From Pirellulaceae bacterium (GTDB taxonomy: Bacteria; Planctomycetota; Planctomycetia; Pirellulales; Pirellulaceae), in NCBI GenBank assembly GCA_020852965.1, contig JADYZV010000029.1, positions 1 to 64,000 on the forward strand: a DNA stretch of 64,000 bases, written 5' to 3'. Positions 8,075 through 48,843 of this stretch are shown in pieces. The notes beneath the pieces were generated by a model. That model saw nothing but the letters and a program-made list of their open reading frames with translations. It was not told the DNA's origin and made no database searches. The position numbers were made by a program, and so were the translations under genes. Position 1 is the first letter of the stretch, and each line of letters begins with the position of its first letter.

Positions 8075-11000
8075 TTGACGAATGCAACTGTGAATTGGTT
8101 GCGGCAGCAGTGTGCCGACAACTTGCTTACTGAAAAATGGCTAGTGTGTGCCAATCTGCGCACTGGCCAAACATGGAAAGACCGGGTCAACCTAGCGGGA
8201 ATTTCCACGGTCAATTTGCACATCAAAACGTTACGTTCGATCGCTCTTTCATTGGTGGGCGAGTCGTTAGCAGCTTCCAATCGCACCTATCTCGGCGGCT
8301 CAGCGGCTCAATCGCTCGTTCATGACCTTGTGAATTCGTTTTTGGAGAGGAACGAGCTTGAGTATTTTGGGCAGGTGCTTCACTCCCAGGGACTTGCTAG
8401 GCTGCTAACTCGGTCAATTCGCGATTTAAGTTTGGCGGGAATAGACGTTAGCGGCCTAGCCGACAGCAGATTTCAGTCCGCCGCCAAAGCCTCAGACATC
8501 CGAAATCTGTATCGGGCATATGCCGAGACGAAGATGCAGCGCCGGTTGGTTGACTACGCCGATTCGTTGAACGCGGCTTCCCAAGGAATCAAAGCAGGAT
8601 CGATTCGTCTCCCTTCCAACTTAGTCGTACTGATGCCTTCAGACGTTCAGATGTCCCTGAGGGAACGAGGATTCATAGAAGAACTGAGACAACACGTTTC
8701 GATCCAGGAGCCAGCACAGGAATCGAAATGCAACGAAGCCCGTGCTGCGGCGACCCTCTCCAAGCTCCAGTGCACGTTTTTCTCGGGATACGGCGAAATC
8801 AACGAGGTGCGTGGAGTTGTTCAGCGCTTGCTTCAGAAGGACGCCAATCAATCCTTACGGATGGATGATGCTGAAATCCTGTACACCGACTCGACCGCGT
8901 ACGTTCCGCTTCTGTACGAATTCCTCTGTGAAGCACCCATTCAGACTGCGGATGGCTCGAGACAGACATTGGCTGATAATCCTCCAATCACGTTCTCGGA
9001 AGGAATCGCAACGATCTATTCGCGACCGGGCCGTGCGCTGCGTGCTTGGCTGCGTTGGATTAAGTCCGATGGACTGCAGTCCAAGGCTGTGCAGATGGTG
9101 CGTGAAGGCATCTTGAATCGTCCGAATGCAGAGGGACAAAGCGATGCCGAGCAGATCGGGTATTCGCGACTGGCATCGAACCTGCGCCGAATCAGCATCG
9201 GTTTCAAGCAAGAACGGTATATCCCAGCAATTCGCGTTGCAATTGAGCAAGCTGAGCATCTCCAGCAAGAGTTTCTTGCACGGCGGGATAATGACGAAGG
9301 CGATGAGGACAAAGCGGGCGACTCGCACGATGAATTGTTTCCGAGAGACTACGGGCTCCCAGCTTTGGAATCCATTCTGTCGATGTTCGAACCGATGGTT
9401 GAGTTTGCCCCGAAAATTGGCGACTCGGCGAAAACTGTGCTTGCGAATGCTAAGCGGTTCTTGCTTAAATGCGCACGTTGTGAAAACAAGCTCGATCGAT
9501 ATGCCCGCAACAAACTGCTAGATGAAATTGATGGTCGACTTGCGGCCCTCGAATTTGCAGACGAAAGCGTCGAAGGTACGATCGCTTGGCTAGAAGAACT
9601 TCCGATCGAAAGCCGCATACTAGGCAGTGGACCTCAACCTGGCTCAATTCATGCTTCGCCGATTGGTGGTGGAGCATTTTCCGGGCGAAAGAATTTCTTC
9701 GTCATTGGGATGGATGCGAATCGATTTCCGAAACCAGCCAGAGTCGATCCGTTGCTATTGGACAGTGAAAGATCCGCAATTTCTGCAGACCTGGAGACGT
9801 CAGTCCAAATTGCTGATCGAAATCAACGTGAGCTAGTTGATGCACTGGATCGAATTGCTCAATCCGATTGCAATAGTCTCCATTTCTCGTTCTCAACTCG
9901 CAACCTAGTTGAGGATCGTGAAGTTTCGCCGAGCCCAAGTTTGGTCGAGTTCTTTCGCACGGCTCGTAACTCGCCTAGCGCCCACGTTGACGATCTCCTT
10001 GCACATATCGGCCGACCGACTGCGTTTGTTAGTACTGATTCGGATAACTGGCTTGGCAAGAACGATGGCGACCTAGCTGAGCTACTTACTACTGCCGATG
10101 AACAAGCTTGTCGAGTGAAATTGGAATCGCAGCACACGAGCTTCCAAGCTGAACGAATCGCACGCGAGCAACGTGAGGCTGTTCACTTCAACGAGTACGA
10201 TGGCTACGTTCCAGAAGCTGGACCGGAACTCTCGCCGACCAACTCAAATCAAGTAGTCTCGCCCAGTCGCTTAGAGACGTTTGGCACCTGCCCACGCCGA
10301 TTCTTTTTTAAGTATGGATTGGGAGTCCAACCGCCAGATGAATGGAATATTGATCCTGAGCGGTGGCTCGACCCGATCACGTTGGGGAAATTAGTGCATG
10401 GACTTTTTGAAAAGTTCTTGAGGAAGCTCACCAGCGATGAGCTCATTCCCAATAGTGAGAGAGATCTGTCAACACTGCTCGAATTCCTGGAGCAGGAGAT
10501 CGCTGTCTATCTACAGGATTTCCCAAGTCCGACTGAAGACGCGTTTCAGCGGCAACACGATTGGCTGGTTGAGGCTTGTGAGATCTTCCTGGAAAAGGAA
10601 CAAGCCTATTGCTTGCAGTCCGGTGCACGTCCGTGGATTCTTGAGGCTGCGATCGGACTGGACGAAGAGCCAAAGTCGCCACTCGATTGTCGCGAACCGA
10701 TTACACTCGGCTTGCGTGATGGTAGGCTCCTCCGCGTGGGAGGCCGAATCGACCGAGTAGACCGATTCTGCCAGAACGGCAGTGAAAGCTACGCGATCTG
10801 GGATTACAAATCGGGATCGGCATTTGAATTCAGCCAGGAAGACCCGTTCAAACAAGGTCGCAAACTTCAGTCGTTCCTTTACGTAGGCATGCTTCGTCAC
10901 CGATTGGCTTCAATTGGTAAGGGCAATGATGTTGTCACCAGCTTCGGCTACTTCTTTCCAAACACCAAAACTGAAGGCCTGCGATTGGTGTGGACGGCCG

Positions 11001-11239
11001 GTGATCTTAAAGAGGGAGACGGCATCCTGCAAAGCATCTGCGATCTTATCCAAGCCGGAGCATTCCCGGCTACCACAAACAAAGAGGACTGCAAGTTCTG
11101 CAACTACAACAACGTATGTAAAGATGCGGCGTTCGTGGCCGTCGAGTCAGTTCGCAAAGCGAGTGATACCAACAATCGCAAGTTACTTGGAGCCTGGCAC
11201 AAGCTTCGACAACTGGACGAACAAGGAGCTGGCCAATGA
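8075..11239 (+). CDS. AddB-like PD-(D/E)XK nuclease subunit with Fe-S cysteines, 1054 aa
   Basis: The C-terminal third is a RecB-type nuclease: GGRIDR near residue 889 and WDYKSG near 908 supply the catalytic Asp and Asp-x-Lys, and a Cys in FGTCPRR near residue 740 together with C-x2-C-x5-C near 1005-1015 forms the iron-sulphur staple typical of AddB. The N-terminal two thirds look like a degenerate SF1 helicase scaffold: the place where AddB normally has a Walker A reads LRTGQTWKDR, with no GxGKT. It overlaps the next gene by four bases (ATGA), so the two subunits are translationally coupled and almost certainly form a heterodimer that resects DNA ends. The start is a TTG; no in-frame ATG is credible. 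It could be housekeeping AddAB carried by a plasmid or a defence-dedicated variant. Confidence 0.82.
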   Translation: MTNATVNWLRQQCADNLLTEKWLVCANLRTGQTWKDRVNLAGISTVNLHIKTLRSIALSLVGESLAASNRTYLGGSAAQSLVHDLVNSFLERNELEYFGQVLHSQGLARLLTRSIRDLSLAGIDVSGLADSRFQSAAKASDIRNLYRAYAETKMQRRLVDYADSLNAASQGIKAGSIRLPSNLVVLMPSDVQMSLRERGFIEELRQHVSIQEPAQESKCNEARAAATLSKLQCTFFSGYGEINEVRGVVQRLLQKDANQSLRMDDAEILYTDSTAYVPLLYEFLCEAPIQTADGSRQTLADNPPITFSEGIATIYSRPGRALRAWLRWIKSDGLQSKAVQMVREGILNRPNAEGQSDAEQIGYSRLASNLRRISIGFKQERYIPAIRVAIEQAEHLQQEFLARRDNDEGDEDKAGDSHDELFPRDYGLPALESILSMFEPMVEFAPKIGDSAKTVLANAKRFLLKCARCENKLDRYARNKLLDEIDGRLAALEFADESVEGTIAWLEELPIESRILGSGPQPGSIHASPIGGGAFSGRKNFFVIGMDANRFPKPARVDPLLLDSERSAISADLETSVQIADRNQRELVDALDRIAQSDCNSLHFSFSTRNLVEDREVSPSPSLVEFFRTARNSPSAHVDDLLAHIGRPTAFVSTDSDNWLGKNDGDLAELLTTADEQACRVKLESQHTSFQAERIAREQREAVHFNEYDGYVPEAGPELSPTNSNQVVSPSRLETFGTCPRRFFFKYGLGVQPPDEWNIDPERWLDPITLGKLVHGLFEKFLRKLTSDELIPNSERDLSTLLEFLEQEIAVYLQDFPSPTEDAFQRQHDWLVEACEIFLEKEQAYCLQSGARPWILEAAIGLDEEPKSPLDCREPITLGLRDGRLLRVGGRIDRVDRFCQNGSESYAIWDYKSGSAFEFSQEDPFKQGRKLQSFLYVGMLRHRLASIGKGNDVVTSFGYFFPNTKTEGLRLVWTAGDLKEGDGILQSICDLIQAGAFPATTNKEDCKFCNYNNVCKDAAFVAVESVRKASDTNNRKLLGAWHKLRQLDEQGAGQ

Positions 11240-14200
11240 ACGCGAAAAGATCAGACCTAGCGGTATCGCAAGCAGAAGCCCAAGACAGAATCACGCGTGA
11301 TCGTATTGAACGGGAACTCGATAAGAATTTCATTGTCGAAGCCGCTGCTGGGACCGGCAAAACCACCAGCCTAGTCAATCGAATGGTGGCGCTGGTCGAA
11401 ACAGGGACCTGCCGCATTGACCAACTGGCTGCAGTGACGTTTACACGCAAGGCAGCCGCCGAACTGCGAGAGCGTTTTCAGGCCGCACTGCGGAAGCGCG
11501 CCAATTGTAGCGCAGCATTGCGGTCTGGTGATTCAAACGATCCCGATCGGCAAATTCGGCTTTCGGATGCCGCGGATCGAGTGAACCGAGCTTTCGTTGG
11601 AACGATACACAGCTTCTGTGCTGCCTTGTTACGAGAACGTCCCATTGAATTCGGTGTCGATCCTGCCTTTCGAGAATTGGATGAAAACGAGGATTTTCAA
11701 ATTCGAGAGCAGGCCTGGCGCGAGAATATCGCCGACCTAATTGCCGTCGGTGATCCACTGTTAGACCAACTTCGCGATCTGAGCATCGATCGAGCGCAAC
11801 TCAAAGCCTGCTTTGACAAGTTTGTTGAGTATCGGGACATTCAGGACTGGCCAGCCACGCTTCCCACGCAGATTGATGTTGACGACTTGCGGCGTAGAAC
11901 TCAAGCATACGTCGAGGATATGAAACTGCTAATTTCAACCTTTCCGGTTGAACGTGGCAAAGAGGAACTGATGGGCCGTTACGAGGAAATCGTACGTGCC
12001 TCTGGACTAAGCTGGTCGAGTTTAGGGAGATTCTTCGCCCTCCTCGAACGATTCGAATCAAAGAAGAAAGCGACTCAAAAGATCTGGGCGGCCGCTGTAG
12101 GCGGTAGCACAAAGCTCGGGAAAGCGCACAGCGATCGTTGGGAGGATTTCCGTATATCCGTAGCGGAGCCTGGTCTCGAATATTGGAGCCGTTTTCGATA
12201 CTCGTTCGTCGTTGACTTTTTGCGTCGAGCGGTGAGTGTTTATGAGCGTCTGAAACAAGCCAATGGAGGTTTGAATTTTCAAGATCTGCTTTTAATTGCG
12301 TCGCGAGGACTGCAGAACCAACCAGAAATGCGAACTTACTTCCAACGAAAGTACTGCAACTTATTGGTTGACGAATTTCAGGACACCGATCCATTGCAAG
12401 CTCAGATGATGTTGTACCTAACAGCTTCGGATTCGTCGCAAGTGGACTGGACGTTGTGCATACCCAATCCTGGCTCACTTTTTTTGGTAGGCGACCCGAA
12501 GCAATCAATTTACCGATTTCGCCGCGGCGACATTATCACCTACAACAAGGTCAAGGAAATAATCTGCAAGAGCGATGGTGAGGTTCTTCCGTTGGTGAAA
12601 AACTTTCGTTCCCGAACAGAATTGCGTGAGTGGAACAACCGCGTTTACAGTGATAAATTCGGCACCAAGGCTACGCCCTATTCGCCGGCGGCTGAGGACA
12701 TGGTTCAAGGTCGCGTCGACTTGAACGTGCCTAGCGATTTGGCGAAAGCATTGTGCGGCACATACCGCCTCGAGCTGCCCACCGATCAGCGAATCGCAGA
12801 AGTGCGCCTTTATGAAGCGGATGCGATCGCTAGATTCATCCGTCATGCGATCGACTCAGGCATTCAAGTGCCAAGATCGCAAAAGGAACTGGATTTTGGG
12901 AGGGCACTGGAAGTTGAACCTCGCGACTTTTTGATCATTCCATGGGGAAAGAAGTCCAACGGTGTGGACACCATGCATGTCTTTACCGATGCATTGCAGC
13001 GCTACTGCATCCCATATCAGGTATCGGGTGGCAATCCTCTGTTCAATAGTTCGCAATTAGCCAACTTAATTGATTGCTTGCGAGCGATTGATGATCCAAC
13101 TAATCCCGTGCACTATTTAACCGTGCTGCGAGAACTCTTTGGCTTCAGCGACCGTGATCTCTACCAGCTCAAACATTCTGGCGGTAACTTCAATTACAAC
13201 CTGCCTGTGCCAGATTCGTTGAATGGTGCACTCAGGTCACGGTTTCAATCGGTTGCCGATCGCATGTGGGATTTTCAGATATGGATGCGATCCTTGCCCT
13301 ACGCAACGGCAGTATCGCAAATCGCGACAGCTCTTGGATCGTTTGCTGCAGCAGCTTCGACCGGAGAAGGTGATATGCAATCAGGAGGACTGTTCAAAGT
13401 CATCGAGAGGCTGAGAAGCCAAAGCTGGGATTTCGATAGCGCGACCGATTTGATTCAATTTATGGAAGAAACTCTCGCCACCGAGGATGCAGACGCTTGT
13501 CCCGCGTTGGCGACTGACGGGAATGTTGTTCGCATTATGAACCTGCACAAGGCAAAGGGACTTGAAGCTCCAATCGTCTTTCTGGCGGACACTCGGCAAA
13601 AGCCCGACCGAAAGCCAGTGTGCTATATCGATCGGAGGTCCGGCGCACCAATTGGTTATATGGGGATTGCCATCGAGCGGGACGTGCAGAAGAAGATCTA
13701 TAAAACGAAGAAGATCGCCACGCCGGAAAACTGGTCCGGACTGCAAGACGAAGAGCGACGCTTCCTGAACGCGGAACACGACCGACTGCTGTACGTAGCC
13801 ACAACACGAGCCGCCTGTGCCACGATCGTTAGCGTCGGCAGTGGCAGCGCAAATTGGGCTAGTCTCTACTCGTACCTTGACAAAGCGCCTGCGTTAGAAA
13901 TTCCCGAACGAGACCCTCCGATGTTCGGCGACGCGACAGCTATAGTCGATGCAAACACAATTTCACAAGAGCAGATCACCGCCAAATGGTCGGCCACTCT
14001 CACGCCCAGCTATGCAATCACCACCGCGAAGAAGCTTGGTCTCAAAGGCAAAACACGTCCCAGCTGGGAAGTTTCCGGCGATTACGGGCACGCTTGGGGT
14101 TCGGCTGTTCACGAACTACTCGAAATCTGCCACAAATCCCCGACCGTCGACCTTCGCGCCACCGCCTTGCGTCTTGTCAAAGAATACGACCTTGGCATAC

Positions 14201-14556
14201 ACCGCGTTGATGAAGTCGTCACGACAGCTCAATCAGTCGCCAAATCTGAGATCTGGAATCGGGCACAAGCATCGGCGCGTTGTTACAGCGAATTACCGTT
14301 TGAGACTACCGCCACGGTCGTCGGCATGCCCACCATTATTCGCGGCATCATCGACTTGATCTTTGAAGAAGCCAACGGCTGGGTAATTGTCGATTACAAG
14401 ACGGACGATCTAAACCCAAAAGACGTTCAGGAAGCCACCGAATTCTACCGCGGACAGCTTGAGCAATACTCGTACTATTGGCAGGACATGACTTCGCTGC
14501 CAATCGCTGAGATGGGGCTCTATTTCACGCGGACCAGCGACTACGCCCGGCTGTAA
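11236..14556 (+). CDS. AddA-like UvrD/RecB-type helicase-nuclease, 1106 aa
   Basis: This is an SF1A helicase fused to a RecB-type nuclease. Walker A AAAGTGKT is at about residues 36-43, followed by VTFTRKAAAELRERF; the Walker B DEFQDT is near 378; GDPKQSIYRFR lies near 420; motif IV-like NFRSR near 453; HKAKGLEAPIVFL near 770; and LLYVATTRA near 850. The nuclease at the C-terminus has GSAVHELLE near 955, GIIDLIFEE near 1036 and VDYKTDD near 1052, all catalytic positions intact. Together with the preceding AddB-like subunit it should process double-strand ends with 3'-5' translocation. Its gene overlaps that subunit by four bases and is followed 31 bases later by an HNH nuclease gene, suggesting one transcript. 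No residue needed for activity appears to be missing. Confidence 0.9.
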   Translation: MNAKRSDLAVSQAEAQDRITRDRIERELDKNFIVEAAAGTGKTTSLVNRMVALVETGTCRIDQLAAVTFTRKAAAELRERFQAALRKRANCSAALRSGDSNDPDRQIRLSDAADRVNRAFVGTIHSFCAALLRERPIEFGVDPAFRELDENEDFQIREQAWRENIADLIAVGDPLLDQLRDLSIDRAQLKACFDKFVEYRDIQDWPATLPTQIDVDDLRRRTQAYVEDMKLLISTFPVERGKEELMGRYEEIVRASGLSWSSLGRFFALLERFESKKKATQKIWAAAVGGSTKLGKAHSDRWEDFRISVAEPGLEYWSRFRYSFVVDFLRRAVSVYERLKQANGGLNFQDLLLIASRGLQNQPEMRTYFQRKYCNLLVDEFQDTDPLQAQMMLYLTASDSSQVDWTLCIPNPGSLFLVGDPKQSIYRFRRGDIITYNKVKEIICKSDGEVLPLVKNFRSRTELREWNNRVYSDKFGTKATPYSPAAEDMVQGRVDLNVPSDLAKALCGTYRLELPTDQRIAEVRLYEADAIARFIRHAIDSGIQVPRSQKELDFGRALEVEPRDFLIIPWGKKSNGVDTMHVFTDALQRYCIPYQVSGGNPLFNSSQLANLIDCLRAIDDPTNPVHYLTVLRELFGFSDRDLYQLKHSGGNFNYNLPVPDSLNGALRSRFQSVADRMWDFQIWMRSLPYATAVSQIATALGSFAAAASTGEGDMQSGGLFKVIERLRSQSWDFDSATDLIQFMEETLATEDADACPALATDGNVVRIMNLHKAKGLEAPIVFLADTRQKPDRKPVCYIDRRSGAPIGYMGIAIERDVQKKIYKTKKIATPENWSGLQDEERRFLNAEHDRLLYVATTRAACATIVSVGSGSANWASLYSYLDKAPALEIPERDPPMFGDATAIVDANTISQEQITAKWSATLTPSYAITTAKKLGLKGKTRPSWEVSGDYGHAWGSAVHELLEICHKSPTVDLRATALRLVKEYDLGIHRVDEVVTTAQSVAKSEIWNRAQASARCYSELPFETTATVVGMPTIIRGIIDLIFEEANGWVIVDYKTDDLNPKDVQEATEFYRGQLEQYSYYWQDMTSLPIAEMGLYFTRTSDYARL

Positions 14557-14587: not shown

Positions 14588-15541
14588 ATGCGAGGTTTTT
14601 GGAAAATTGCGCCTGGGAGAAAGGCAGCCTATTGGGGAGAATGCCGAGACAATGGCTGCATCGCCATTAGCTGGATGAATGCTCTCGATCTTCGGGCGTT
14701 CGATGATAAAAAAGGAATAGAAAACGAACTCATCAGTCGAGCCGAGGGAGCGTCGCGCGATGCGCACTCGATTTGGACATTCGTTCATGAAATGAAGAAG
14801 GGAGATATCGTTGTTGCAAATGACGGCAAGAGTAGCGTTAAAGGAATCGGAGTAATCCGCAGCGATTATTTGCCACCCAGCGATCGAAACAACCCGTTTA
14901 AAAACGCCGAAAGGTATGCGCAAGTTCGGCTGGTGGACTGGAAACTCACAAGCCCAGTCGTGTTGGGAAAAGAGGTCTTCAATATCCCAACTGTACAGGT
15001 TCTGCGATTGGCCCAGGTCGAGAAAGTTCACGCGGCCTATCTCAAGCAGTTCCCGAATAAGCAAGCCCTGCTGGAAAAGCTGCTGTCTGTTCGCTTGTCG
15101 CCGGAAGATTCGGCCCCTGCGACCGAAGAATTTGTTCCATCATCTGACGATGAACGATCCGCGATTCTTCGACGCATCATGCAGCGTCGGGGGCAGCAGA
15201 AGTTTCGTCGCGAGTTACTGACTCGTTACCAGGGCAAATGTGTCGTAACTGGTTGCGGCATAGTTGATCTGCTTGAAGCAGCCCACATTCATCCGCATTT
15301 GGGAGCGAAAGACAACGTACCGGAAAACGGACTTCTCCTGCGCGCAGACATTCACACGTTGTTCGACCTGCACTTGTTGGCGATCGATCCAAAGACTCTC
15401 GAAGTAGTGTTGGCGTCAAAGATTGCCAATGATTCGGATTACAAGAAGTTTGCTAGTCGAGCAATCACGTTTCCACGAGGGTCCAAGCCCTCGATAGCGG
15501 CCCTCAAGGTCCGTTACGACCAGTTCTTAGCTCAGCAATAA
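14588..15541 (+). CDS. HNH endonuclease with PUA/EVE-like N-terminal domain (candidate modification-dependent restriction enzyme), 317 aa
   Basis: Residues 1-135 (FWKIAPGRKAAYWGEC, WTFVHEMKKGDIVVAN, GIGVI) look like a small PUA-superfamily/EVE-type barrel, the kind used to read modified bases. Residues of about 213-275 are an HNH_2-type nuclease: GKCVVTGC, then LEAAHIHPH, ENGLLLRADIHTLFD, with the histidine of AAHI and the asparagine/histidine pair of NGL and DIH as metal-binding and catalytic candidates. Known proteins with this pairing act as type IV, modification-dependent restriction enzymes. The ATG at 14588 is the only sensible start. It lies between the AddAB-like pair and the DrmD-like gene and is probably in the same operon, so it may add a cleavage activity against phage DNA carrying modified bases. 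That role is inference. Confidence 0.8.
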   Translation: MRGFWKIAPGRKAAYWGECRDNGCIAISWMNALDLRAFDDKKGIENELISRAEGASRDAHSIWTFVHEMKKGDIVVANDGKSSVKGIGVIRSDYLPPSDRNNPFKNAERYAQVRLVDWKLTSPVVLGKEVFNIPTVQVLRLAQVEKVHAAYLKQFPNKQALLEKLLSVRLSPEDSAPATEEFVPSSDDERSAILRRIMQRRGQQKFRRELLTRYQGKCVVTGCGIVDLLEAAHIHPHLGAKDNVPENGLLLRADIHTLFDLHLLAIDPKTLEVVLASKIANDSDYKKFASRAITFPRGSKPSIAALKVRYDQFLAQQ

Positions 15542-29807: not shown

Positions 29808-30137
29808 ATGCCGCTTCCTTCAGTGAGTCCTGGATGGACCATCAACTTCGTACTTGAGTCAGGCCACATTGACGCCGACTTAACACCACCCGATTCAATT
29901 GAAGACCTGATCAAAGCTCCGTCAACAACTATGACGGCAAACTTTCCGATCGGGTATCCCGCGCGCGAAGACGCTCTGGCGACTCTCACGCGATGGCTCG
30001 ATTTCGCGTTGCGCGATGCCGCCTTCTTCCGAAAAATACACGAGCGGGGTGGCAATGTTGAACCCGGCTTGCGTGGATATCTAGACCGCAAAGACCGTTA
30101 CTTGGCGGCAGTCAAACAATTGATCAACGAAACCTAG
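29808..30137 (+). CDS. Small hypothetical protein between the second SNF2 gene and the giant helicase, 109 aa
   Basis: I do not recognise this protein. It begins at an ATG 127 bases after the SNF2 gene and ends 30 bases before the giant helicase gene, so it is most likely cotranscribed. The first 55 residues are Pro/Asp-rich and probably extended (SPGWTINFVLESGHIDADLTPP); residues 60-108 look like two helices (REDALATLTRWLDFALRD, YLDRKDRYLAAVKQLI). There are no cysteines or membrane segments. The position within an otherwise coupled run makes it a candidate accessory subunit or regulator of the helicase complex, but this is inferred from position alone. Confidence 0.6.
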   Translation: MPLPSVSPGWTINFVLESGHIDADLTPPDSIEDLIKAPSTTMTANFPIGYPAREDALATLTRWLDFALRDAAFFRKIHERGGNVEPGLRGYLDRKDRYLAAVKQLINET

Positions 30138-38050: not shown

Positions 38051-38070
38051 AAAGACTCCATGGATCCATC

Positions 38071-38301: not shown

Positions 38302-38467
38302 GTTTGGCTGGAGACTCGCTCCTCATTCATCACTGTCCATCCCTCTGGACCAAAGTTCTTGTTGCCGCCAGTTTGGTATCGCTGAACAGCGTACGGGAAG
38401 ATTCCCAAGTGTTACAATTCGATGCATTCAATAAGTGATTTTTCGTGCCGTAAGCTGATCGCAACGA

Positions 38468-39778: not shown

Positions 39779-41801
39779 GATTCCGCGTGAGGCACTATCG
39801 GATCACTTTCAACTTCGGATGGAAGGCCGTCGTTTGCGCTCTGCGGTGCTTCTGACCTACCAGTTCGATCCAGGCTTCTTTGAACAAGAAGTATTGCCAG
39901 TGTTTTTCGACATTGGCCTGAGCCACGCTTCGGCCATTCGACTACTGCAATTGGAGGACGCGATTCGCGATCTCGCTGGAGAAATCGCGGTGTACTACGA
40001 TGCAGGCGGGCTAGTCGTTGGCGATGCGGGATCTGCAAAGTTGGATGTTCGCTACATCCCGATCCAGCATAACGCGATCTTTCATCCCAAGAACGTCTTG
40101 TTACTGGTGGAGGATGAAGTAGCGGACGAGAATGACGAACGTCAGTTGTATTTGATCTTTGCGTGTATGTCGGCAAATCTAACGCGATCGGGATGGTGGG
40201 AGAACATTGAATGTTGCCATGTAGAGGAAATTGCACACGGCGATAAAAATCGGTTGAAGGAAGATCTAACAAAGTTCTTGCAATCAATAAAGCGCAGAAG
40301 CCCTGGCGGAACGACTCACACAGCGATTGACGACATCCTTACTTTCTTGCGGGCCAGCGAGCAACGAAAACAAAAGTCGATCGCCGGGGAGTTGCAGTCG
40401 CACTTCTACCGAGGTGGCGAGAGTTTGCCGGAGTTTCTTAAACGCCACATTGGCAGTCAACTGAAAGGCGGCTACCTGGAAATTATCTCGCCCTATTTCG
40501 ATGATGCTGATCAGTGCGATCCGTTGGAAGAGTTGATCCGGTTATTCGAACCGAAGGACGTGCGTGTATTCTTGCCGCGAAGTGCCTCGGGTGAAGCACT
40601 GGTGCGAAAGGAATTGTTCGAGTCGGTTACCGATTTACCCAAGGCAGGTTGGGGGAGGCTGCCAAAGGACATCATGCGTCGCGGATCGCGTGAAGAATAC
40701 GGAGAGCGGTTTGTGCACGCCAAGCTCTATCGCTTTTTCACGCAAAGTCCGAAACGCGAGATCTGCTTTCTTGGCTCGCCCAACCTAACCCGCAGCGCTC
40801 ACCAGAAGGACGGAAACATTGAAAGTGGGTTCTTAGTCGAAGTCCCCACACCACGCCGTCCCGAATTCTGGATGAGTCCGGAATTGAAAACGCCGACTGA
40901 GTTTGCCGTTCGCGGCGAAGATGATGGATCAGACTCCGGGAGTTCACCTTTGAACATCCGGTATAACTGGGACACTGAAACCGCGTCGGCTTTTTGGGAC
41001 CACAAAGCAAATTCATCTGTACTTCGTATTTCTGATCGAAACGTCCCGCTTGGCGATATCGGTCCTCTCGCATGTCGAGAGTGGATTGAGTTATCAAGCG
41101 AGATTGCAACTGCGATCGCAAGCATACTTGACAACACTACCTTGGTAGAAGTTCATTGCGAAGGAGAGAAACCAGCATATGTCCTCATTCAGGAGGAAGG
41201 GATGTCGCATAAGCCATCATTGCTGCTGCAGCTCTCGACGGCAGACATCCTGCGCTATTGGTCGCTGCTGAGTGCTGAGCAACGTGCGGCATTCATCGAT
41301 TCGCGTGCAACGGATTTGGCCGGAATCGGAACTGGCACTGATCTGGTGGTTCGAGCAAAAATCGCACTGGACAACGATACTCTTTTCGATCGTTTTGCGG
41401 GCTTCTTTCATGCGTTCGGCTGCTTGGAGCGTTCTGTCCGAAAGTCACTTGACGACGGCCAGCCCAAGCAAGCCAGCTATCGCCTGTTTGGCAAGAAATA
41501 TGATTCCCTCGGCACGTTGCTTGAGCGTGTTGCAGCCCAGCGAGAGACACTCGACGCCGTCGATGGATATGTAATTTTGATGTGCTGCAAACAATTGTGC
41601 ATCGAAATTGCCAAGGACTATCCAGATTACTGGCGTGAACAAATGGACTACACTAAGAAACTGAACGCGCGGCTTGCCGACTTAGCATCAGTCCGCAAGC
41701 GATTGTTGAAAGAAAATGAACATGGATTTGGCGATTTCTTGACTTGGTTTGACAAGTGGTTTTTGAAGCGGGCCACACCGGCGGAGGTGGCTGATGCTTG
41801 A
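39771..41801 (+). CDS. Phospholipase-D-superfamily protein with two HxK motifs, 676 aa
   Basis: Two PLD-type half sites are visible: HPKNVLLLV near residue 105 followed by CMSANLTRSGWW, and HAKLYRFF near residue 318 followed by GSPNLTRSAH. Two such halves form one active site in this superfamily, whose prokaryotic members in defence systems are mostly nucleases (for example DrmC and DpdK). The remaining C-terminal 280 residues are helical and unrecognised. No signal peptide or membrane segment is present, so it should be a cytosolic DNA or RNA phosphodiesterase rather than a lipase. The gene overlaps its upstream and downstream neighbours by eight bases each, showing tight coupling to an unknown protein and an SNF2-like helicase. 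It is the likely nuclease of that operon. Confidence 0.82.
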   Translation: MTEIPREALSDHFQLRMEGRRLRSAVLLTYQFDPGFFEQEVLPVFFDIGLSHASAIRLLQLEDAIRDLAGEIAVYYDAGGLVVGDAGSAKLDVRYIPIQHNAIFHPKNVLLLVEDEVADENDERQLYLIFACMSANLTRSGWWENIECCHVEEIAHGDKNRLKEDLTKFLQSIKRRSPGGTTHTAIDDILTFLRASEQRKQKSIAGELQSHFYRGGESLPEFLKRHIGSQLKGGYLEIISPYFDDADQCDPLEELIRLFEPKDVRVFLPRSASGEALVRKELFESVTDLPKAGWGRLPKDIMRRGSREEYGERFVHAKLYRFFTQSPKREICFLGSPNLTRSAHQKDGNIESGFLVEVPTPRRPEFWMSPELKTPTEFAVRGEDDGSDSGSSPLNIRYNWDTETASAFWDHKANSSVLRISDRNVPLGDIGPLACREWIELSSEIATAIASILDNTTLVEVHCEGEKPAYVLIQEEGMSHKPSLLLQLSTADILRYWSLLSAEQRAAFIDSRATDLAGIGTGTDLVVRAKIALDNDTLFDRFAGFFHAFGCLERSVRKSLDDGQPKQASYRLFGKKYDSLGTLLERVAAQRETLDAVDGYVILMCCKQLCIEIAKDYPDYWREQMDYTKKLNARLADLASVRKRLLKENEHGFGDFLTWFDKWFLKRATPAEVADA

Positions 41802-44800
41802 TACAAAATTGGCTTCTCAGTTACTCGACTTCGGTAGTAGGATCGGTTCAGCGCGTGGGGATGAACAACTAGAAGGAGCCGTCGCAATTCACAATATGCT
41901 CCAGTCGAATGGCGTCGCTTACTTGGCTGATGAAGTCGGCATGGGCAAGACGTATGTGGCGTTAGGGGCCTTAGCTTTGTTTCGCCACTTCAGTCCAAGT
42001 TTTCGCGTTCTCATCCTCGCACCGCGCGGCAATATTCAATCGAAATGGATGAAGGAACAGCGTAACTTTGTCGCTAACAACGTCCGTGTCTGCGACATGC
42101 GAGTGAAGTCACTGCACGGTTCGCCAGCGCGTCCGTTGGTATCCTGCAGCAATTTGCATGACCTGGTTCACGAGGTTACTGCGGACCCCAATCGTGACTT
42201 CTTCGCCAAGATGACGAGTTTCAGCTTTGCCATCACCGGCAAGAATTCCGTTGATCGTGAGCGTGGCGAAAAGATCCGTGACGCTTTTCGACGTAGTGTT
42301 CCTTGGCTTCGCAACGAGATTTTCGATCTTCGTAGCAAGGAATCCTTCAAAGACAACTTCGCGAAGGCGCTTTGTTGCGTTCTGCCGACGTTCGACCTTG
42401 TCATTGTCGATGAGGCTCACAATCTAAAGCATGGCTTTGGTGATCATGTCTCATCTCGTAATCGTTTGTTAGCTCTGGCTATGGGGCATCCGAGTGTTGA
42501 GCCTGACTTCAAGCTTTTCCCCGGCTTTAGGCCTAGAGCTGCCCGCGTTCTGTTTTTATCCGCGACTCCAGTGGAGGAAACCTACCAACAGCTTTGGAAC
42601 CAATTGGATGTCTTTGGTAAAGCGGCTCCTTACAAGCAGCTCTTGGACAAGAAGATTACCGATGACGAGCGAAAGGCGATCGCAGCCGAGTTTTTGATTC
42701 GTCGAGTTACATCGGTTCGAATCGGTGCAAACGAATTGACCAAGAATGAATACCGACGCGAGTGGAGACGCGGTGGTGTCGCCTCTCACGACGAACCGAT
42801 CAGAGTCGAAGATCCAAAACAACGTCTTGTGGTCGCACTCGTTCAGAAGAAGGTTACCGAGTTGCTGGGACACGAGCGATTCAATTCGTCGTTCCAAATT
42901 GGGATGTTAGCGTCCTTCGAGAGCTTTCTAGAAACGGCAAAGCTGAAGCGCGACGATGACGAGTCGGCTAACTTTGACGATTCGGACCAAACAGAAAACG
43001 CGATCGAGAAGGAAGGCATCGATGTAGGTGATATCAATCGCTTGGCTCGATCGTATAGGAACCAGTTTCAATCTGAATTGCCGCATCCAAAAATGGACGC
43101 GTTAGTTAGTTCACTTTCGCAGTGTTGGGAGACTGGTGAGAAAGCCCTTGTGTTTGTTCGCCGAGTTGCATCCGTAAAAGAACTTAAACGCAAACTGGAT
43201 GATCGATACGATGAATGGCTGATGAATCGACTGCGGTCCGAAATGCCGCAGCGCATGCAGGATCGGCTAGCGTCATTGTTCGATGCGTATCGTCAGCAGC
43301 GGCTCGCGGCTGGAAACAAGCAACTTGACTTGTCCGGCGAGGTTGTTCCCGGGGGCGGCAAGGAATCAGATGGCGGTGGCTTAGATACGTTCTTCGCTTG
43401 GTTCTTTCGTGGCGAAGGTCCTGCGGATGTCGTAAGCGGCGCAAATATCCAGCGGCGATTTATTCAGAGCGGAACAACCTTGGCAACTTTCTTCTCGGAC
43501 AACTATGTGGCTGACGTGCTTCGATGCAAGCCCGCGATGGTCGAGAGCGCGCTTGCAGAAGTGCTTGGCTTGAATGAGGGAGGACTATTGACGGAACTTC
43601 GAAAAGAATCCGTGAAGTTTCTCAGTGCGGCCAAGAGACAAACCAGAGCCGACCGTATTGAAGCAGTCCAAGCAGCCGCCATTGAGCTATTGAAGGACAA
43701 GAAGTGCGAATTCCAGGAAGATGCTCGTGTCGTGTGGCATGAGCGTTTCGAACGTCAGGCCCATGCGATCCCAGCGATCGAGACTTCTGATGTTTCGTGT
43801 TTGCTAGCCGTCGAAACTTTTTTTACAAAGCTGCGCGAGAGACCCGAACTTCGCGCTGACTTGTGGCCAGAGTCAGAAGGCAAATGCCGCACAACACGGT
43901 TTCGGAGTCGTGAATGGAGAGCCAGCTTACTTGCATCGGTTGCTCGATTGGGCCATTCCTTTATCGATATGTATGTCTTGATCGCGTCTCGCCTGCAAAC
44001 CCTCGACCAGCGATCGCAACAACGAGGCTTAGAGGACGAGTCGGATTCAAACAACGATCAAATCACCCAGTACCTCGACTTGCTTGAGCATCAACGAGCG
44101 ACGGATAGAAAAACGCGAGGTTGGCGGGCATTTGATGAGCTGGCTGATGTTGCCGCAAACTTCGATTTGATTATTGACGTCAATGCGCCCAATATTCGGG
44201 ACAAGCATGTTGATGAAGCTACAAAGGAGTTTGGCAGCATGCTTGGCCGACAACAGCCCGTGGGTGGAATGTCTGGCAAAGTCAATGAAACCTTGGTCCG
44301 TCAGTTCCGAATGCCAGGTTATCCCTTGGTTCTGTTTTCAACTGACCTGCTTCAGGAAGGCGAAGACCTTCACACTTTCTGTTCATCGATTCATCACTAC
44401 GGGATATCTTGGACTCCATCGTCAATGGAACAACGGATTGGTCGAATTGATCGTGTCAGGTCTCATTCGGATCGCCGTCTTTCAAGCCTGAACGAGGAGG
44501 GGCTGGAGGGAAACGATAAGCTTCAAGTGTTTTTTCCGCATCTGGAAGATACGGTCGAGGTGCTTCAAGTTCATCGCGTCCTGGACCGGATGAACATGTT
44601 TTTACGTTTGATGCACGAAGGGCTAACTGTATCCACGACAGAACAAAGAACCATTAACGCGAGCCACGAATTTGCCAAATCGAGGAAGCCTCCCGAGCAG
44701 ATTCGTGGTCGATTAAAAACAGCCTTCCCAGTTTTACCCGCGCACGTAATTGGCACGCGAGAATCGCTCCCAACTGTGCCGGATCATTACTCGGAAATTC

Positions 44801-45270
44801 AAAATCGATTTAGAAAGCTTTCATCCGGTGAGCTTCACGGCTTAACTATTCAATGGGAACGAGAAGCAAACGAATGTGTGCTAACTGGGACCGCGAAATT
44901 AAATCATCGAATACAGCCATTCACCCTAATACTCGACTCAGTCGACCGGTTTCCAATTGTTCGATGTCTTAGCCCGGTGGGACGGGTCGACCCAGACGAA
45001 GAAATGGAGGCTGTATTGGAAGCAGTATCTGCGAGCCCAATGAAGGTTGGAGCAATCGTTAGTAAAGATGAACGCAGCTATGACTTGACGGTGGAAGGTG
45101 AGGTGCTTTTCAGCGGTGATGACGAGGTGAATCGACTACGGATTTCAGGACTTATCGAGCGAGTTGTACTTAACGCGGACATACTCGAACAGAGACTGCT
45201 GCCCGGACGAGACGAATCGCTGGAAGCGTTTCGAGACGATCTGCGCAAGGAGGCTGGTCATGACAGCTGA
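41794..45270 (+). CDS. Third SNF2-like SF2 helicase, partner of the PLD protein, 1158 aa
   Basis: Walker A is in YLADEVGMGKTYVALGAL near residue 44, the Walker B in LVIVDEAHNLKHG near 201, LFLSATPVEE near 253, and the second lobe has FSTDLLQEGEDLHTFC near 850 and SSMEQRIGRIDRVRS near 873. About 400 residues separate the first lobe from the final helicase motifs, with an acidic patch (DDDESANFDDSDQTEN) near 390. This LLQEGEDLHTFC-type second lobe is a distinct subfamily that I have seen paired with PLD proteins. The C-terminal 200 residues form a separate beta-rich domain. It is translated from a start inside the PLD gene and overlaps the small gene that follows by 11 bases. The role is probably to drive the PLD nuclease along DNA. 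Confidence 0.85.
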   Translation: MLDTKLASQLLDFGSRIGSARGDEQLEGAVAIHNMLQSNGVAYLADEVGMGKTYVALGALALFRHFSPSFRVLILAPRGNIQSKWMKEQRNFVANNVRVCDMRVKSLHGSPARPLVSCSNLHDLVHEVTADPNRDFFAKMTSFSFAITGKNSVDRERGEKIRDAFRRSVPWLRNEIFDLRSKESFKDNFAKALCCVLPTFDLVIVDEAHNLKHGFGDHVSSRNRLLALAMGHPSVEPDFKLFPGFRPRAARVLFLSATPVEETYQQLWNQLDVFGKAAPYKQLLDKKITDDERKAIAAEFLIRRVTSVRIGANELTKNEYRREWRRGGVASHDEPIRVEDPKQRLVVALVQKKVTELLGHERFNSSFQIGMLASFESFLETAKLKRDDDESANFDDSDQTENAIEKEGIDVGDINRLARSYRNQFQSELPHPKMDALVSSLSQCWETGEKALVFVRRVASVKELKRKLDDRYDEWLMNRLRSEMPQRMQDRLASLFDAYRQQRLAAGNKQLDLSGEVVPGGGKESDGGGLDTFFAWFFRGEGPADVVSGANIQRRFIQSGTTLATFFSDNYVADVLRCKPAMVESALAEVLGLNEGGLLTELRKESVKFLSAAKRQTRADRIEAVQAAAIELLKDKKCEFQEDARVVWHERFERQAHAIPAIETSDVSCLLAVETFFTKLRERPELRADLWPESEGKCRTTRFRSREWRASLLASVARLGHSFIDMYVLIASRLQTLDQRSQQRGLEDESDSNNDQITQYLDLLEHQRATDRKTRGWRAFDELADVAANFDLIIDVNAPNIRDKHVDEATKEFGSMLGRQQPVGGMSGKVNETLVRQFRMPGYPLVLFSTDLLQEGEDLHTFCSSIHHYGISWTPSSMEQRIGRIDRVRSHSDRRLSSLNEEGLEGNDKLQVFFPHLEDTVEVLQVHRVLDRMNMFLRLMHEGLTVSTTEQRTINASHEFAKSRKPPEQIRGRLKTAFPVLPAHVIGTRESLPTVPDHYSEIQNRFRKLSSGELHGLTIQWEREANECVLTGTAKLNHRIQPFTLILDSVDRFPIVRCLSPVGRVDPDEEMEAVLEAVSASPMKVGAIVSKDERSYDLTVEGEVLFSGDDEVNRLRISGLIERVVLNADILEQRLLPGRDESLEAFRDDLRKEAGHDS

Positions 45271-45634
45271 TTGGCGCACGATGGCTAGTGCAGAGGATTT
45301 TAGTGTCGATGGATCATCAGTTGGTGTGACGCTCCAAGACGGCCGAAAACACTGTGTGGAGGTCAGCAAACAGGCGAATGAACTTGTACTGAGTGCGTTC
45401 GTCGTGAAGCAATCTGTCGTCAGTTCGTTGCCCGAGCTTCCACTGGAAATTTGGAAAAGGAATCGAAGTGCAAGTTTGGTCGGGTTTCGAATTGATAAGA
45501 AGAATCGTTTGATTGCCGAATGCCGCATACCGACACATGGCCTTACTAGCGAGGAGTTCCAGTTTTATATGCGAACTATTGCCGTCGAGGCTGATCGTCT
45601 TGAGTTTCTCTTGACGGGACGAGACCAGGAATAG
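45260..45634 (+). CDS. Small protein overlapping the third helicase gene, 124 aa
   Basis: The start is the ATG at 45260, overlapping the helicase stop by 11 bases; the frame is open further upstream, but that part lies inside the helicase gene. The protein has alternating strands (SVGVTLQDGRKHCVEVSK, SLVGFRIDKKNRLIAECRIP) and ends with a helical segment EEFQFYMRTIAVEADRLEFLLTGRD. The overall strand-strand-helix pattern resembles the small chaperone-like fold of YbjN/type III secretion chaperones, in which a C-terminal helix follows a beta sheet. I do not recognise the family. Tight coupling suggests that it binds the helicase or another member of this operon. Confidence 0.65.
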   Translation: MTADWRTMASAEDFSVDGSSVGVTLQDGRKHCVEVSKQANELVLSAFVVKQSVVSSLPELPLEIWKRNRSASLVGFRIDKKNRLIAECRIPTHGLTSEEFQFYMRTIAVEADRLEFLLTGRDQE

Positions 45635-45735: not shown

Positions 45736-48700
45736 GTGCATCCAGGTCTTTACGAAGAAATTCTCACGAAAGCTATTGAATCGCAGCTCGCTGAGCTTGG
45801 CGACCCGAGGCTATTCGCTCTAAGTCCCGTGGATGCGGAAGAGTCGCATTCGGCTCTCGCTCAGTACCTAGAAAGATTGATCGCGGCAAGTTTGGCCCTG
45901 CATCGCGGCTCGGATGCGGCTGAGAAGCAGCGACAACTGGTGGAACGAATCATGGTCACGCTTGCTGATGCATTGCAAGATGGAGAAGCTGATGGCTTGA
46001 GCATCGCCACGCCGCTGCAACGCTTGCTGGCGGTCCATCGATCAGCGAACGTTCCCTCCAAAGATCGGCCCGACAGCCCATTGTCGCGTTCGTCACTGTT
46101 CACTGGGACGCGATTGGATGCCAGTCTAGGAAGCCAGCTCCGAAAAGAGATCGCGACTTGCGATGGTGTTGATATCCTCTGTTCGTTCATCAAGTGGAGC
46201 GGGCTGCGAGTCTTGTTGGACAACCTTCGTGAATTAGCTGAACAAGCAGGTGGCGCAGAGCCAGTGATTCGCGTCATTACCACAAGCTACATGGGAGCGA
46301 CTGACCCCAAAGCAGTTGAAGCACTGCGTGAGTTGCCCAGAACAGAAGTTCGCGTCAGTTATGACACCAAACGAACGCGGCTGCATGCGAAGGCATATCT
46401 CTTTCGCCGGAATACGGGTTTCAGTAACGCCTATGTGGGCTCTGCGAACCTCTCGAATGCGGCGCTGACTGAGGGACTCGAGTGGACCACCAAGATCAGC
46501 CAGTACGAACTGCCTTATCTCTGGGAAAAGGTGACGGGTACTTTCGAGACTTATTGGCAAGATGATGAGTTCCAGTCTTTCGACGAGCACGCTGTCCCGA
46601 GACTGCGTCAGGCAATCCAGACGGAACGCCATGTTGCATCGGATTCAGGCTCGGGGCTCAATTTCGATTTGCGTCCGTTCCCGTTTCAAGAAGAAATTCT
46701 CGATATCATCGCAGCCGAACGCGAGGTCCAGAATAAGTATCGCCATCTTGTGGTCGCAGCAACCGGTACCGGCAAGACGATGATCGCCGCCTTTGACTAT
46801 GCCAGAGTTGCTCGGCAACTCGGGCGCAAACCTCGGTTGCTGTTTATTGCCCACCGCAAGGAGATTCTCAACCAAGCGTTAATGTCGTTTCGTTGCGTCG
46901 TAAGGGACCAGAACTTCGGTGAGTTGCTCGTTGATGGTAACGATCCTGGACAACGCAACCATTTGTTTTGCTCGATCCAAAGCTACAACTCGCGCAATCT
47001 GATTGATGAAGCGGCTGATCGATTTGAATACGTCGTCGTGGACGAGTTCCACCATGCTGCCGCGCCGAGTTATCAATCGCTTCTCGGACATGCTCAGCCA
47101 ACGATCTTACTGGGGCTGACCGCGACTCCTGAACGCTCCGATCAACTTGATGTGCTGAGTTGGTTTGGTGGGCGAGCCAGCGCCGAGATCCGACTTCCCG
47201 ACGCGATCAATCGTCGACTACTGTGCCCGTTTCAGTACTTCGGTGTCGCAGATTCGGTTGACCTCAATGGTCTCGCTTGGCAGCGTGGTGGATACCGCGT
47301 CGATGATTTGGATCGGCTTTACACAGGCAACGATATCCGAGCGAAGCTAATTCTCGAAAAGCTTTACGATACGGTTTTGGACCCTACCGATGTTCGCGGC
47401 TTAGCGTTTTGCGTCAGTGTGGCCCACGCCGAATTCATGGCGAGGTTCTTTGGTGAGAACGGAGTGACTTCAATCTCACTTTCGGCGCAGTCGACGGATG
47501 AAGAGCGAAACACGGCCCAGCAGAAACTGCGGGACCGCTCTGTGAACTTCATTTTCGTGGTTGATCTCTACAACGAAGGTGTTGACATTCCCGAAGTCGA
47601 TACGGTGCTGTTTCTGCGACCAACGGAAAGCCTGACGGTGTTCCTACAGCAACTTGGCCGTGGCCTTCGGTTGCATCCCGATAAAGATTGCTTAACGGTA
47701 CTCGACTTCATCGGGGCACAACGCAAAGAGTTTCGCTTTGCGAGTCGCTTTCGCGCATTGAGCGGAAAACCAACCGCAAAGCTTGACTACGAAATCGCAG
47801 CCGAGTTTCCGCACTTGCCCAGCGGTTGCGTGATCAAACTCGAGCGAGTCGCCCAGCAACGAGTGCTCGACAACGTACGCGAATCGATTCGTTTGGTCCG
47901 TCCACGTATGTTAGCGTCGCTGCGTGATCTGAAGCAGTACCTTGGCGGAACGCCGACAATCGAGGATGCCATCGACTATTTTGACACAACCCTGGACGAA
48001 TTGCTGAAGCGAGGCTTATGGTCGCGGTTGCTGGCAGATGCTGGAATTGGAGAGCAAGTGGATTCTCCTGATGAGTCGCAACTCGCCAAGGGGATTTGTC
48101 GACTGAGCCACATCAATTGTCCACAGCAGATTGGTGTGCTAAAGGAGTACCTGGCGTCGTCTGAGCCAGCTGGGTCAATCAGTATGCCGGCGCTTATTGA
48201 AATGTTGCACACCACACTTTGGGGAACCCAGCATTCAGAAATGTCGCTGGAAGTCGCTGAGCAACGATTGCGAACCAATCCCTTTGTGATTAACGACCTC
48301 ATCACCGTATTGGACTACCGGCTAAAGCATTCGCCATTGATCGCATCGTCAACATCGTCAGTTTACTCTCCCCTCGAGATTCATGCAGCCTACACGCGTG
48401 ACGAAATCCTGGTCGCGCTCGGCCACTGGAGATTCAACAATCGGCCGAGCCAGCGCGAAGGCGTCTTGCACTTGAAAGATCGAAAGCTCGACGTGTTCTT
48501 CGTGACCCTGCAAAAATCCGAAGACGAGTACTCGCCCACAACCATGTACGAGGACTACCTTATCTCACACGATATCTTCCACTGGCAATCTCAGAGCAAC
48601 ACGTCCGAACAGTCACCCACGGGCCAACGATACATCCGACATTCAGAGTTGGGCTACACACCGTTGCTGTTCGTGCGCGAAACCAAGACCCTGCCATCAG

Positions 48701-48843
48701 GGCTATCGGCTCCTTACCACTTTCTCGGCCCATGCAGCTATGTAAGTCATACCGGCAGTCGCCCCATAAGCATCACCTGGAAACTACAGCATTCGGTTCC
48801 AACTCGATTGCTAAGGACGATGACGCGACAGATCGCTGTGTAG
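45736..48843 (+). CDS. PLD nuclease - SF2 helicase - DUF3427-type protein, 1035 aa
   Basis: A single polypeptide combining a PLD-like domain with a helicase. Residues of about 120-260 hold the PLD part with HAKAYLFRR near 217 and YVGSANLSNAAL near 231. The helicase has Walker A AATGTGKTMIAAFD near 340, a DEFHH box (VVVDEFHHAAAPSY) near 434, GLTATPERSD near 459, and YNEGVDIPEVDTVLFLRP plus LQQLGRGLRL in 610-650. The C-terminal 380 residues match the layout of DUF3427-type proteins, with NRPSQREGVLHLKDRK near 900. Such proteins occur widely as stand-alone defence or repair genes. The start is a GTG at 45736, 101 bases after the previous gene, so transcription may continue from the array. It converges with a paralogous architecture on the minus strand, with about 200 bases in between. 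Confidence 0.87.
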   Translation: MHPGLYEEILTKAIESQLAELGDPRLFALSPVDAEESHSALAQYLERLIAASLALHRGSDAAEKQRQLVERIMVTLADALQDGEADGLSIATPLQRLLAVHRSANVPSKDRPDSPLSRSSLFTGTRLDASLGSQLRKEIATCDGVDILCSFIKWSGLRVLLDNLRELAEQAGGAEPVIRVITTSYMGATDPKAVEALRELPRTEVRVSYDTKRTRLHAKAYLFRRNTGFSNAYVGSANLSNAALTEGLEWTTKISQYELPYLWEKVTGTFETYWQDDEFQSFDEHAVPRLRQAIQTERHVASDSGSGLNFDLRPFPFQEEILDIIAAEREVQNKYRHLVVAATGTGKTMIAAFDYARVARQLGRKPRLLFIAHRKEILNQALMSFRCVVRDQNFGELLVDGNDPGQRNHLFCSIQSYNSRNLIDEAADRFEYVVVDEFHHAAAPSYQSLLGHAQPTILLGLTATPERSDQLDVLSWFGGRASAEIRLPDAINRRLLCPFQYFGVADSVDLNGLAWQRGGYRVDDLDRLYTGNDIRAKLILEKLYDTVLDPTDVRGLAFCVSVAHAEFMARFFGENGVTSISLSAQSTDEERNTAQQKLRDRSVNFIFVVDLYNEGVDIPEVDTVLFLRPTESLTVFLQQLGRGLRLHPDKDCLTVLDFIGAQRKEFRFASRFRALSGKPTAKLDYEIAAEFPHLPSGCVIKLERVAQQRVLDNVRESIRLVRPRMLASLRDLKQYLGGTPTIEDAIDYFDTTLDELLKRGLWSRLLADAGIGEQVDSPDESQLAKGICRLSHINCPQQIGVLKEYLASSEPAGSISMPALIEMLHTTLWGTQHSEMSLEVAEQRLRTNPFVINDLITVLDYRLKHSPLIASSTSSVYSPLEIHAAYTRDEILVALGHWRFNNRPSQREGVLHLKDRKLDVFFVTLQKSEDEYSPTTMYEDYLISHDIFHWQSQSNTSEQSPTGQRYIRHSELGYTPLLFVRETKTLPSGLSAPYHFLGPCSYVSHTGSRPISITWKLQHSVPTRLLRTMTRQIAV

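Follow-up and report, generated by a model that had tools for sequence, protein, structure and literature searches.

ARMADA defence systems join, according to the main text of the preprint that describes them (Bell et al. 2025, PMC12458937), a BrxHII-like helicase, a PglX-like methyltransferase and a YprA helicase, to which Type II adds a RelE-UvrD protein. The Type II system of Escherichia coli comprises three helicases and one methyltransferase, requires all four genes and gives non-abortive protection; the A-B-C gene order is reported there from many archaea and cyanobacteria. In BREX loci, diverse back-up nucleases are embedded, including OLD and Shedu-type proteins, as set out in a 2026 paper (PMC12839542). 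We analysed a stretch of 64,000 nucleotides (nt), here called the window, that forms bases 1-64000 of a 72,436-base contig (JADYZV010000029.1) in the 8.37-Mb genome of a Pirellulaceae bacterium (GCA_020852965.1). Positions 8075-48843 hold 15 plus-strand open reading frames (ORFs), seven of them with helicase domains (Table 1). We consider it likely that this array is a defence island in which an ARMADA core of a third lineage carries, in a recurrent slot between armB and armC, a probably independent dynamin-SNF2 module.

Table 1 Genes of the plus-strand array, with lengths in amino acids (aa) and profile matches
Feature	Length (aa)	Position	Strand	Matches
AddB-like protein with PD-(D/E)XK domain	1054	8075..11239	+	Pfam PDDEXK_1 111.8 bits
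AddA-like UvrD helicase, C-terminal PD-(D/E)XK	1106	11236..14556	+	UvrD-helicase 170.9, PDDEXK_1 41.8 bits
HNH endonuclease	317	14588..15541	+	HNH_2 50.6; PADLOC HNH 52.9, PDC-S02 33.7 bits
ArmA (DrmD/RapA-like SNF2 helicase)	1092	15653..18931	+	DISARM_DrmD 648.2 bits (NCBIfam cut-off 610)
ArmB (PglX/DrmMI-like adenine methyltransferase)	1844	18928..24462	+	IIG 1423.7, DrmMI 420.1 bits
Dynamin-like GTPase	803	24516..26927	+	Pfam Dynamin_N 42.9 bits; G1 and G3 motifs
SNF2b helicase	933 (mechanical ORF)	26924..29680 (mechanical ORF from 26879)	+	Pfam Helicase_C 64.9 bits
Orphan ORF in slot	109	29808..30137	+	No family match
ArmC (YprA/DruE-like helicase, Zn-binding domain)	1924	30168..35942	+	DruE 370.8 bits; DEAD, Helicase_C, MZB
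ArmD (UvrD helicase, conserved N-terminal domain)	703	35939..38050	+	Pfam UvrD-helicase 79.7 bits
PDC-M27A-like protein	436	38468..39778	+	PADLOC PDC-M27A 58.2 bits
PDC-M27B/ZacB-like PLD protein	676	39771..41801	+	ZacB 70.1, PDC-M27B 33 bits
PDC-M27C-like SNF2/SF2 helicase	1158	41794..45270	+	PDC-M27C 271.8, Helicase_C 46.2 bits
Small ORF after M27C	156 (mechanical ORF)	45260..45634 (mechanical ORF from 45164)	+	No family match
PLD-SF2-DUF3427 protein, type IV restriction-like	1035	45736..48843	+	mREase_IV 790.3, ResIII 113.3, DUF3427 98.1 bits

ARMADA core and its lineage

By its sequence, the core of the array is an ARMADA operon, with armA, armB, armC and armD beginning at 15653, 18928, 30168 and 35939. 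A BrxHII/RapA-like helicase (ArmA) adjoins a PglX-like methyltransferase (ArmB), a YprA-family helicase of the ARMADA/Druantia branch (ArmC) lies within the same operon, and a GajB-like UvrD helicase (ArmD) follows it. ArmA also matches the PADLOC DrmD model at 639.9 bits and has RapA as its nearest solved relative, ArmB has an Eco57I match in Pfam and an NPPW motif at residue 1031, and ArmD is 37% to 38% identical to the ArmD proteins of E. coli and cyanobacterial plasmids, with 99% of these relatives aligned. Matches of ArmC to solved structures are confined to the YprA part; by eye, a stretch of its tail may be Vsr-like. The N-terminal stretch of the window ArmD is conserved among known ArmD proteins. 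A profile search with it gave no RelE-type toxin, and its low-confidence model (predicted local distance difference test, pLDDT, 56.2) had no Foldseek match at E 0.001. Of the RelE-UvrD label that the original prediction, made from the letters of the window, had given this gene, the UvrD part stands and the RelE part is plausible but unconfirmed by profile search and Foldseek.

With Type II ARMADA, as presented in the preprint's main text (PMC12458937), the window shares the A-B-C-D order, the level of ArmD identity and the NPPW motif in ArmB. It differs from the strict, uninterrupted Type II order in that 5.7 kb of cargo (dynamin, SNF2b and the 109-aa ORF) splits the operon between armB and armC, and its ArmC lies outside the E. 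coli clade. ArmA, ArmB and ArmC are common to the window and Type I (PMC12458937, main text), whereas the window ArmC stands apart from that of C-A-B and haloarchaeal operons.

Trees of ArmC were built quickly from 27 proteins (26 ArmC and one DruE) and more carefully from 25 rows. In both, the window ArmC falls into a clade of eight rows together with those of genomes G072, G169, G052, G482, G579, G277 and G715, supported by a Shimodaira-Hasegawa-like approximate likelihood ratio test (SH-aLRT) value of 100 in the 27-row tree and by 100/100 in the 25-row tree. The clade lies outside the E. coli Type II set and outside the C-A-B and haloarchaeal set, which we assign to Type I by gene order. 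Because the branch to the DruE outgroup is very long, any branching order among the three sets is tentative. At this support, we assign the window ArmC to a putative third ARMADA lineage, separate from the Type II and Type I-like sets. ArmC of this kind is rare, with 5 of 294 and 6 of 382 genomes of the phylum (overlapping draws) containing it at E 1e-150. At E 1e-100, it was present in 2 of 339 genomes in the phylum of an Obscuribacterales genome, which from the name we take to be cyanobacterial, and in 0 of 369 genomes sampled around a Zoogloea genome, a count that shows little without a positive control. Within the lineage and the extent of the stretches, ArmD was seen in the window and in G482 and not in G052, G277, G579 or G715.

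Other described systems share parts of this core. DISARM Class 1 has in common with the window a DrmD-like helicase and a DrmMI-like methyltransferase and differs in that the YprA-type helicase of the window is of the DruE kind and in one piece. An assignment to DISARM Class 1 was rejected, with no DrmB among the matches listed (best 25 per protein) and no convincing DrmA or DrmC (DrmC models reach only 19.7 to 21 bits, on the M27B-like protein, and DrmA models score below DrmD on ArmA). Druantia III was likewise rejected, since DruE occurs without DruH among the same best 25 matches per protein.

Cargo between armB and armC

To count cargo, defined as any ORF of 70 aa or more that lies between two core genes, we compared 22 A-B-C operons, six from sampled genomes (the window, G052, G277, G482, G579 and G715) and 16 from plasmids, in a table entered by hand. 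The plasmid loci derive from 21 picked for diversity, 17 among the 40 listed of 163 records and 4 among the 20 listed of 102. Before counting, L136, L155, L156 and L157 were dropped for another gene order, L150 for the end of its record, and genomes G169 and G072 for contig edges. Cargo is present at the B-C junction in 14 of the 22 operons, at A-B in 1 of 20 and at C-D in 0 of 9 (Fisher p = 3e-06; the loci are related and kinship is uncorrected). The pattern persists when Planktothrix is counted once (B-C 12/20, A-B 1/18) and when the lineage and a Synechocystis copy are excluded (7/15 at B-C, 0/15 at A-B and 0/7 at C-D). All six third-lineage members with a visible junction are filled, each with different cargo; the stretches of G072 and G169 stop at contig edges. 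The junction is empty in PCC 7367, E. coli, Martelella, Tsukamurella, Natrinema, Haloquadratum, Thermus and Allomeiothermus. Outside the 22, E. coli ATCC 8739 (L170), from which the outgroup was taken, also has no gene between armB and armC.

Several of the slots in the lineage hold known defence genes. G482 carries Mokosh (MkoA 864 bits, MkoB 265 bits), G052 an OLD nuclease (254 bits) that overlaps the armB stop, and G277 seven ORFs, among them one for a short Argonaute (427 bits) next to one for a TIR protein. The slot of G715 has three ORFs, one encoding a KAP-type NTPase, and that of G579 a DUF2281-PemK pair in the sole operon that also has ORFs between armA and armB. The Synechocystis plasmid copy, a broken relative, contains a small ORF and a PIN-domain gene. 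Outside the lineage, the slot of Pseudanabaena galeata holds six genes, those of Haematobacter, Nostoc linckia and Natribaculum (on the opposite strand) one each, and those of three Planktothrix plasmids a Uma2 gene, with Rpn in two and Shedu (251 bits) in one. One of the P. galeata slot genes (L144 13164-15581) encodes an 805-aa UvrD-type protein similar to ArmD, located in the slot instead of after armC. Where ARMADA operons have the order C-A-B, the armB stop is overlapped by an AAA-McrC pair (L155 24938-28847) or a DUF2326 gene (L156 25288-27258), as if cargo followed armB in those operons too.

One closely related pair allows a filled and an empty site to be compared. Beside the junction, the Haematobacter (L146, filled) and Martelella (L159, empty) operons share 90% identity in a 298-bp stretch of armB and 92% in a 726-bp stretch of armC, with greater divergence further up in armB; the additional 282-aa gene of Haematobacter begins on the armB stop, after which armC continues from the same codons as in Martelella. 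Two Planktothrix plasmids share 98% identity along 1,479 bp that run nearly to the end of Uma2, and 97% along 369 bp inside armC; what differs between these matched parts is Shedu, together with a stretch that extends as far as the first bases of armC. A 2-kb junction query matched 518 of 5,426 E. coli genomes. In the 60 listed rows, a span above 2.01 kb occurs once, in an O145 strain, where it takes in an insertion-sequence gene; as the search joins pieces, an insert below about 1.5 kb could hide in the rows beyond.

The window ARMADA and BREX loci with embedded effectors (PMC12839542) both have extra effectors inside a modification-based defence locus. In ARMADA, however, cargo gathers at one junction and may be a whole multi-gene system such as Mokosh. 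By analogy, the slot looks like the back-up strategy of BREX in another system.

The dynamin-SNF2b pair

The 5.7-kb slot of the window holds the dynamin-like gene, the SNF2 gene and the 109-aa ORF. The model of the GTPase (pLDDT 76.5; predicted template modelling score, pTM, 0.50) matches SynDLP (E 1.7e-11) and BDLP (E 5e-11), with low global template modelling (TM) scores of 0.21 to 0.23. The slot GTPase, as modelled, has a dynamin-type fold. SNF2b keeps its helicase motifs and is 39% to 50% identical to its partners in four other loci. The dynamin protein is found in 6 of the 294 genomes, including the source, and SNF2b is adjacent in all five others; with Polyangium fumosum as the sixth, the two genes adjoin in 6 of 6 other loci. 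No ArmB or ArmC was present in the fetched stretches of these six.

Plasmids gave no match to the dynamin protein and 596 records for SNF2b, 0 of them covering 80% of the query. A viral origin of SNF2b was rejected, as a scan of viral contigs matched 44 stretches, of which one was a relative (36% identity along 69 residues). The SNF2b scan of genome contigs was unspecific (at least 80 loci), and only L023 and L024 (47% to 53% identity) were taken as orthologues; the other loci were partial, at 38% identity or less. The neighbour of SNF2b in L023 is not visible because that stretch starts at SNF2b. Eleos also includes a dynamin-type GTPase, and its LeoA is among the structural matches. Membership in Eleos was rejected, the window reaching only 35.7 bits with the LeoBC model and its dynamin having an SNF2 helicase as partner.

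From its slot context, the dynamin-SNF2 pair is probably an independent, previously unrecognised defence system. Our literature search, with supplementary files and most subscription papers outside it, found no report of an ARMADA slot and, in titles and abstract openings, no named dynamin-SNF2 system; the words dynamin, Mokosh, Argonaute and accessory do not occur in the main text of the ARMADA preprint (PMC12458937).

Proposed function and alternative explanations

The slot module is probably exchangeable between operons, to judge from the genes compared here. Third-lineage operons might be two-layer platforms, with a fixed, DNA-recognising front line and a slot normally loaded with a swappable back-up, the dynamin-SNF2 pair being one such module and an undescribed defence system that couples DNA sensing to membrane remodelling; this scheme as a whole we regard as rather doubtful. 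For the locus as read at the outset, ArmB would modify host DNA, and the SNF2 translocase ArmA, the YprA translocase ArmC and the UvrD protein ArmD would recognise and block invading DNA while the cell survives. Blocking without killing has a precedent in the Type II ARMADA of E. coli (main text, PMC12458937). The cargo would be expressed with the operon and would act as a second layer once the first has been evaded. For this cargo, a more doubtful step would have SNF2b detect phage DNA and thereby permit the dynamin GTPase to remodel or seal the membrane.

A serious rival to the two-layer scheme, with a little less than an even chance of being correct, is that the armB-armC junction is a passive landing place, a tolerated site in mobile DNA, where cargo and ARMADA are independent and the stack is ordinary accretion. 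The great diversity of the cargo, with toxin-antitoxin genes and one opposite-strand gene (L154) in it, fits this explanation, as do the decayed core of some filled operons (L147, L140) and the occurrence of dynamin-SNF2b without ARMADA. Against it, A-B and C-D in these operons hardly ever hold cargo (1/20 and 0/9), and cargo is co-directional in nearly all filled operons and overlaps the armB stop in G052 and Haematobacter.

A number of observations also weigh against the interpretation of the locus as an ARMADA core with a functional, loaded slot. The slot is empty in 8 of the 22 operons, so cargo is not needed for ARMADA. The loci compared, 16 of the 22 being hand-picked plasmid loci, are akin to one another, and no correction was applied to the Fisher values. 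In E. coli, 490 of the 518 genomes that match the 2-kb junction query have 80% or more of it. The Shedu-bearing Planktothrix operon has a shortened core (ArmA ORF of 239 aa, ArmB ORF of 603 aa) and the Synechocystis copy is fragmented into many ORFs; ARMADA function is thus hardly to be expected of some filled operons. The cargo also includes toxin-antitoxin genes, which are possibly passengers, and a gene on the opposite strand. In the core itself, the RelE fold of the ArmD N-terminus is not confirmed. Of the six other dynamin-SNF2b stretches, only those of G258 (60 kb) and Polyangium (22.7 kb) are long enough to show well that ARMADA is absent, the remaining four being contigs of 6 to 11 kb. 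In two of these six loci the dynamin gene seems to be broken, in G258 by an in-frame stop and in G065 by a split over several ORFs that also affects SNF2b. Since the pair recurs without ARMADA and some copies are broken, dynamin-SNF2b appears to be a unit of its own that sometimes decays.

Some roles of bacterial dynamins at membranes have nothing to do with phage. These roles, together with the two broken relatives, would suit an explanation of the dynamin-SNF2 pair as a host module for membrane or chromosome upkeep, which we nevertheless judge unlikely, as the pair is sporadic (6 of 294 genomes, including the source) and sits in a slot where other genomes hold known defence systems. It is very improbable that the 41 kb are a single grown machine with all parts acting together, as co-direction and overlapping frames across large blocks could suggest, since AddB-AddA, dynamin-SNF2b and M27A-B-C each recur without the others, none of the other fetched ARMADA operons holds the full set of the window, and in E. 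coli the core of four genes is enough (PMC12458937, main text).

Should cargo indeed be loaded at the armB-armC junction, ARMADA operons would become a discovery tool in which the slot content is a candidate defence system. Mokosh, OLD, Shedu and the short-Argonaute pair would serve as positive controls, and cargo of other kinds, the dynamin-SNF2 pair first, could be tested directly. Naturally filled and empty operons would permit a simple test of co-operation between nested systems. The main value of the locus lies in a third ARMADA lineage whose internal slot is loaded, and in a dynamin-SNF2 pair that its context marks as a likely new defence system.

Layout of the array

The original prediction had described a co-directional array with overlapping junctions and at least seven helicases. 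The ORF list bears out that all recognisable genes from 8075 to 48843 are on the plus strand, and start codons read against ORF ends give overlaps at every junction it named (4 nt at 11236, 18928, 26924 and 35939, 8 nt at both 39771 and 41794, and 11 nt at 45260). At the SNF2b junction, the mechanical ORF begins at 26879, and the inner ATG at 26924 agrees with that prediction. Its large translationally coupled blocks exist as AddB-AddA, ArmA-ArmB, dynamin-SNF2b, ArmC-ArmD and M27A-B-C, but seven gaps of 31, 111, 53, 127, 30, 417 and 101 nt intervene, so that coupling is not continuous and the array is not a single unbroken chain. Mechanical plus-strand ORFs also precede it at 6051 and 7187, so 8075 is no strand boundary. 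Scans of 24000-39000 for promoters and terminators showed no excess over shuffled sequences (3 against a mean of 9.7 and 15 against 15.8, respectively).

The seven helicases (AddA, ArmA, SNF2b, ArmC, ArmD, M27C and the DUF3427 gene) all score above Pfam cut-offs, and the labels DrmD-like, YprA/DruE-like and PLD-SF2 hold; an eighth helicase gene lies directly outside the array on the minus strand (49051-52836). ARMADA alone contributes three of the helicases, and the high number arises because several systems are stacked, so no new giant system is needed. Between the prediction's two options, stacked systems or one grown system, the evidence supports stacking and disfavours growth, since AddB-AddA, dynamin-SNF2b and M27A-B-C are each found elsewhere without the rest in the fetched stretches. 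Separate occurrence with no recurring association had been proposed as the mark of a chance stack; the modules do recur separately, yet the armB-armC junction repeatedly houses defence modules elsewhere, so that chance alone does not account for the stack. Gene content supports a dense, putative defence island of at least five separable modules on one strand, not one giant system. The modules comprise the AddB-AddA-like pair, the HNH gene, the ARMADA operon, the M27A-B-C trio and the PLD-SF2-DUF3427 gene.

Flanking modules and neighbouring genes

Upstream of the core, the AddB-like gene scores 62.5 bits with addB_Gpos (cut-off 903.7) and the AddA-like gene 261.1 bits with addA_Gpos (cut-off 707.65). 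True AddAB at the equivalog level was rejected, since the domains are there and the NCBIfam scores are far under the cut-offs; the pair is AddAB-like only. The source genome has no second AddA apart from a weak match. The AddB-like protein is present in 11 of the 294 genomes including the source, the other ten being outside the family, order and class of the source. AddA adjoins AddB in 6 of these ten, and no ArmA, ArmB or ArmC matches were present in the ten stretches fetched around their AddB genes. Downstream, three adjacent genes follow the order of the PADLOC candidate system PDC-M27, with M27B at 33 bits only and its PLDc_2 match (24.8 bits) under the cut-off of 27. A Rhodoferax plasmid carries M27A-B-C in this order too.

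Convergent with the DUF3427 gene, the minus-strand gene at 49051-52836 encodes a 1261-aa protein with HIT, PLD, SF2 helicase and S24-like domains. The C-terminal part of the ArmC relative in G072 (L105 5463-5738) is 50% identical to residues 1109-1197 of this protein, so two unlike helicases have a common tail domain. Beyond it are two related microbial PARG-type proteins (52960-53841 and 55866-56747) with an aldo/keto reductase in between, and a HEPN-domain protein (57210-57992) is encoded downstream of the island.

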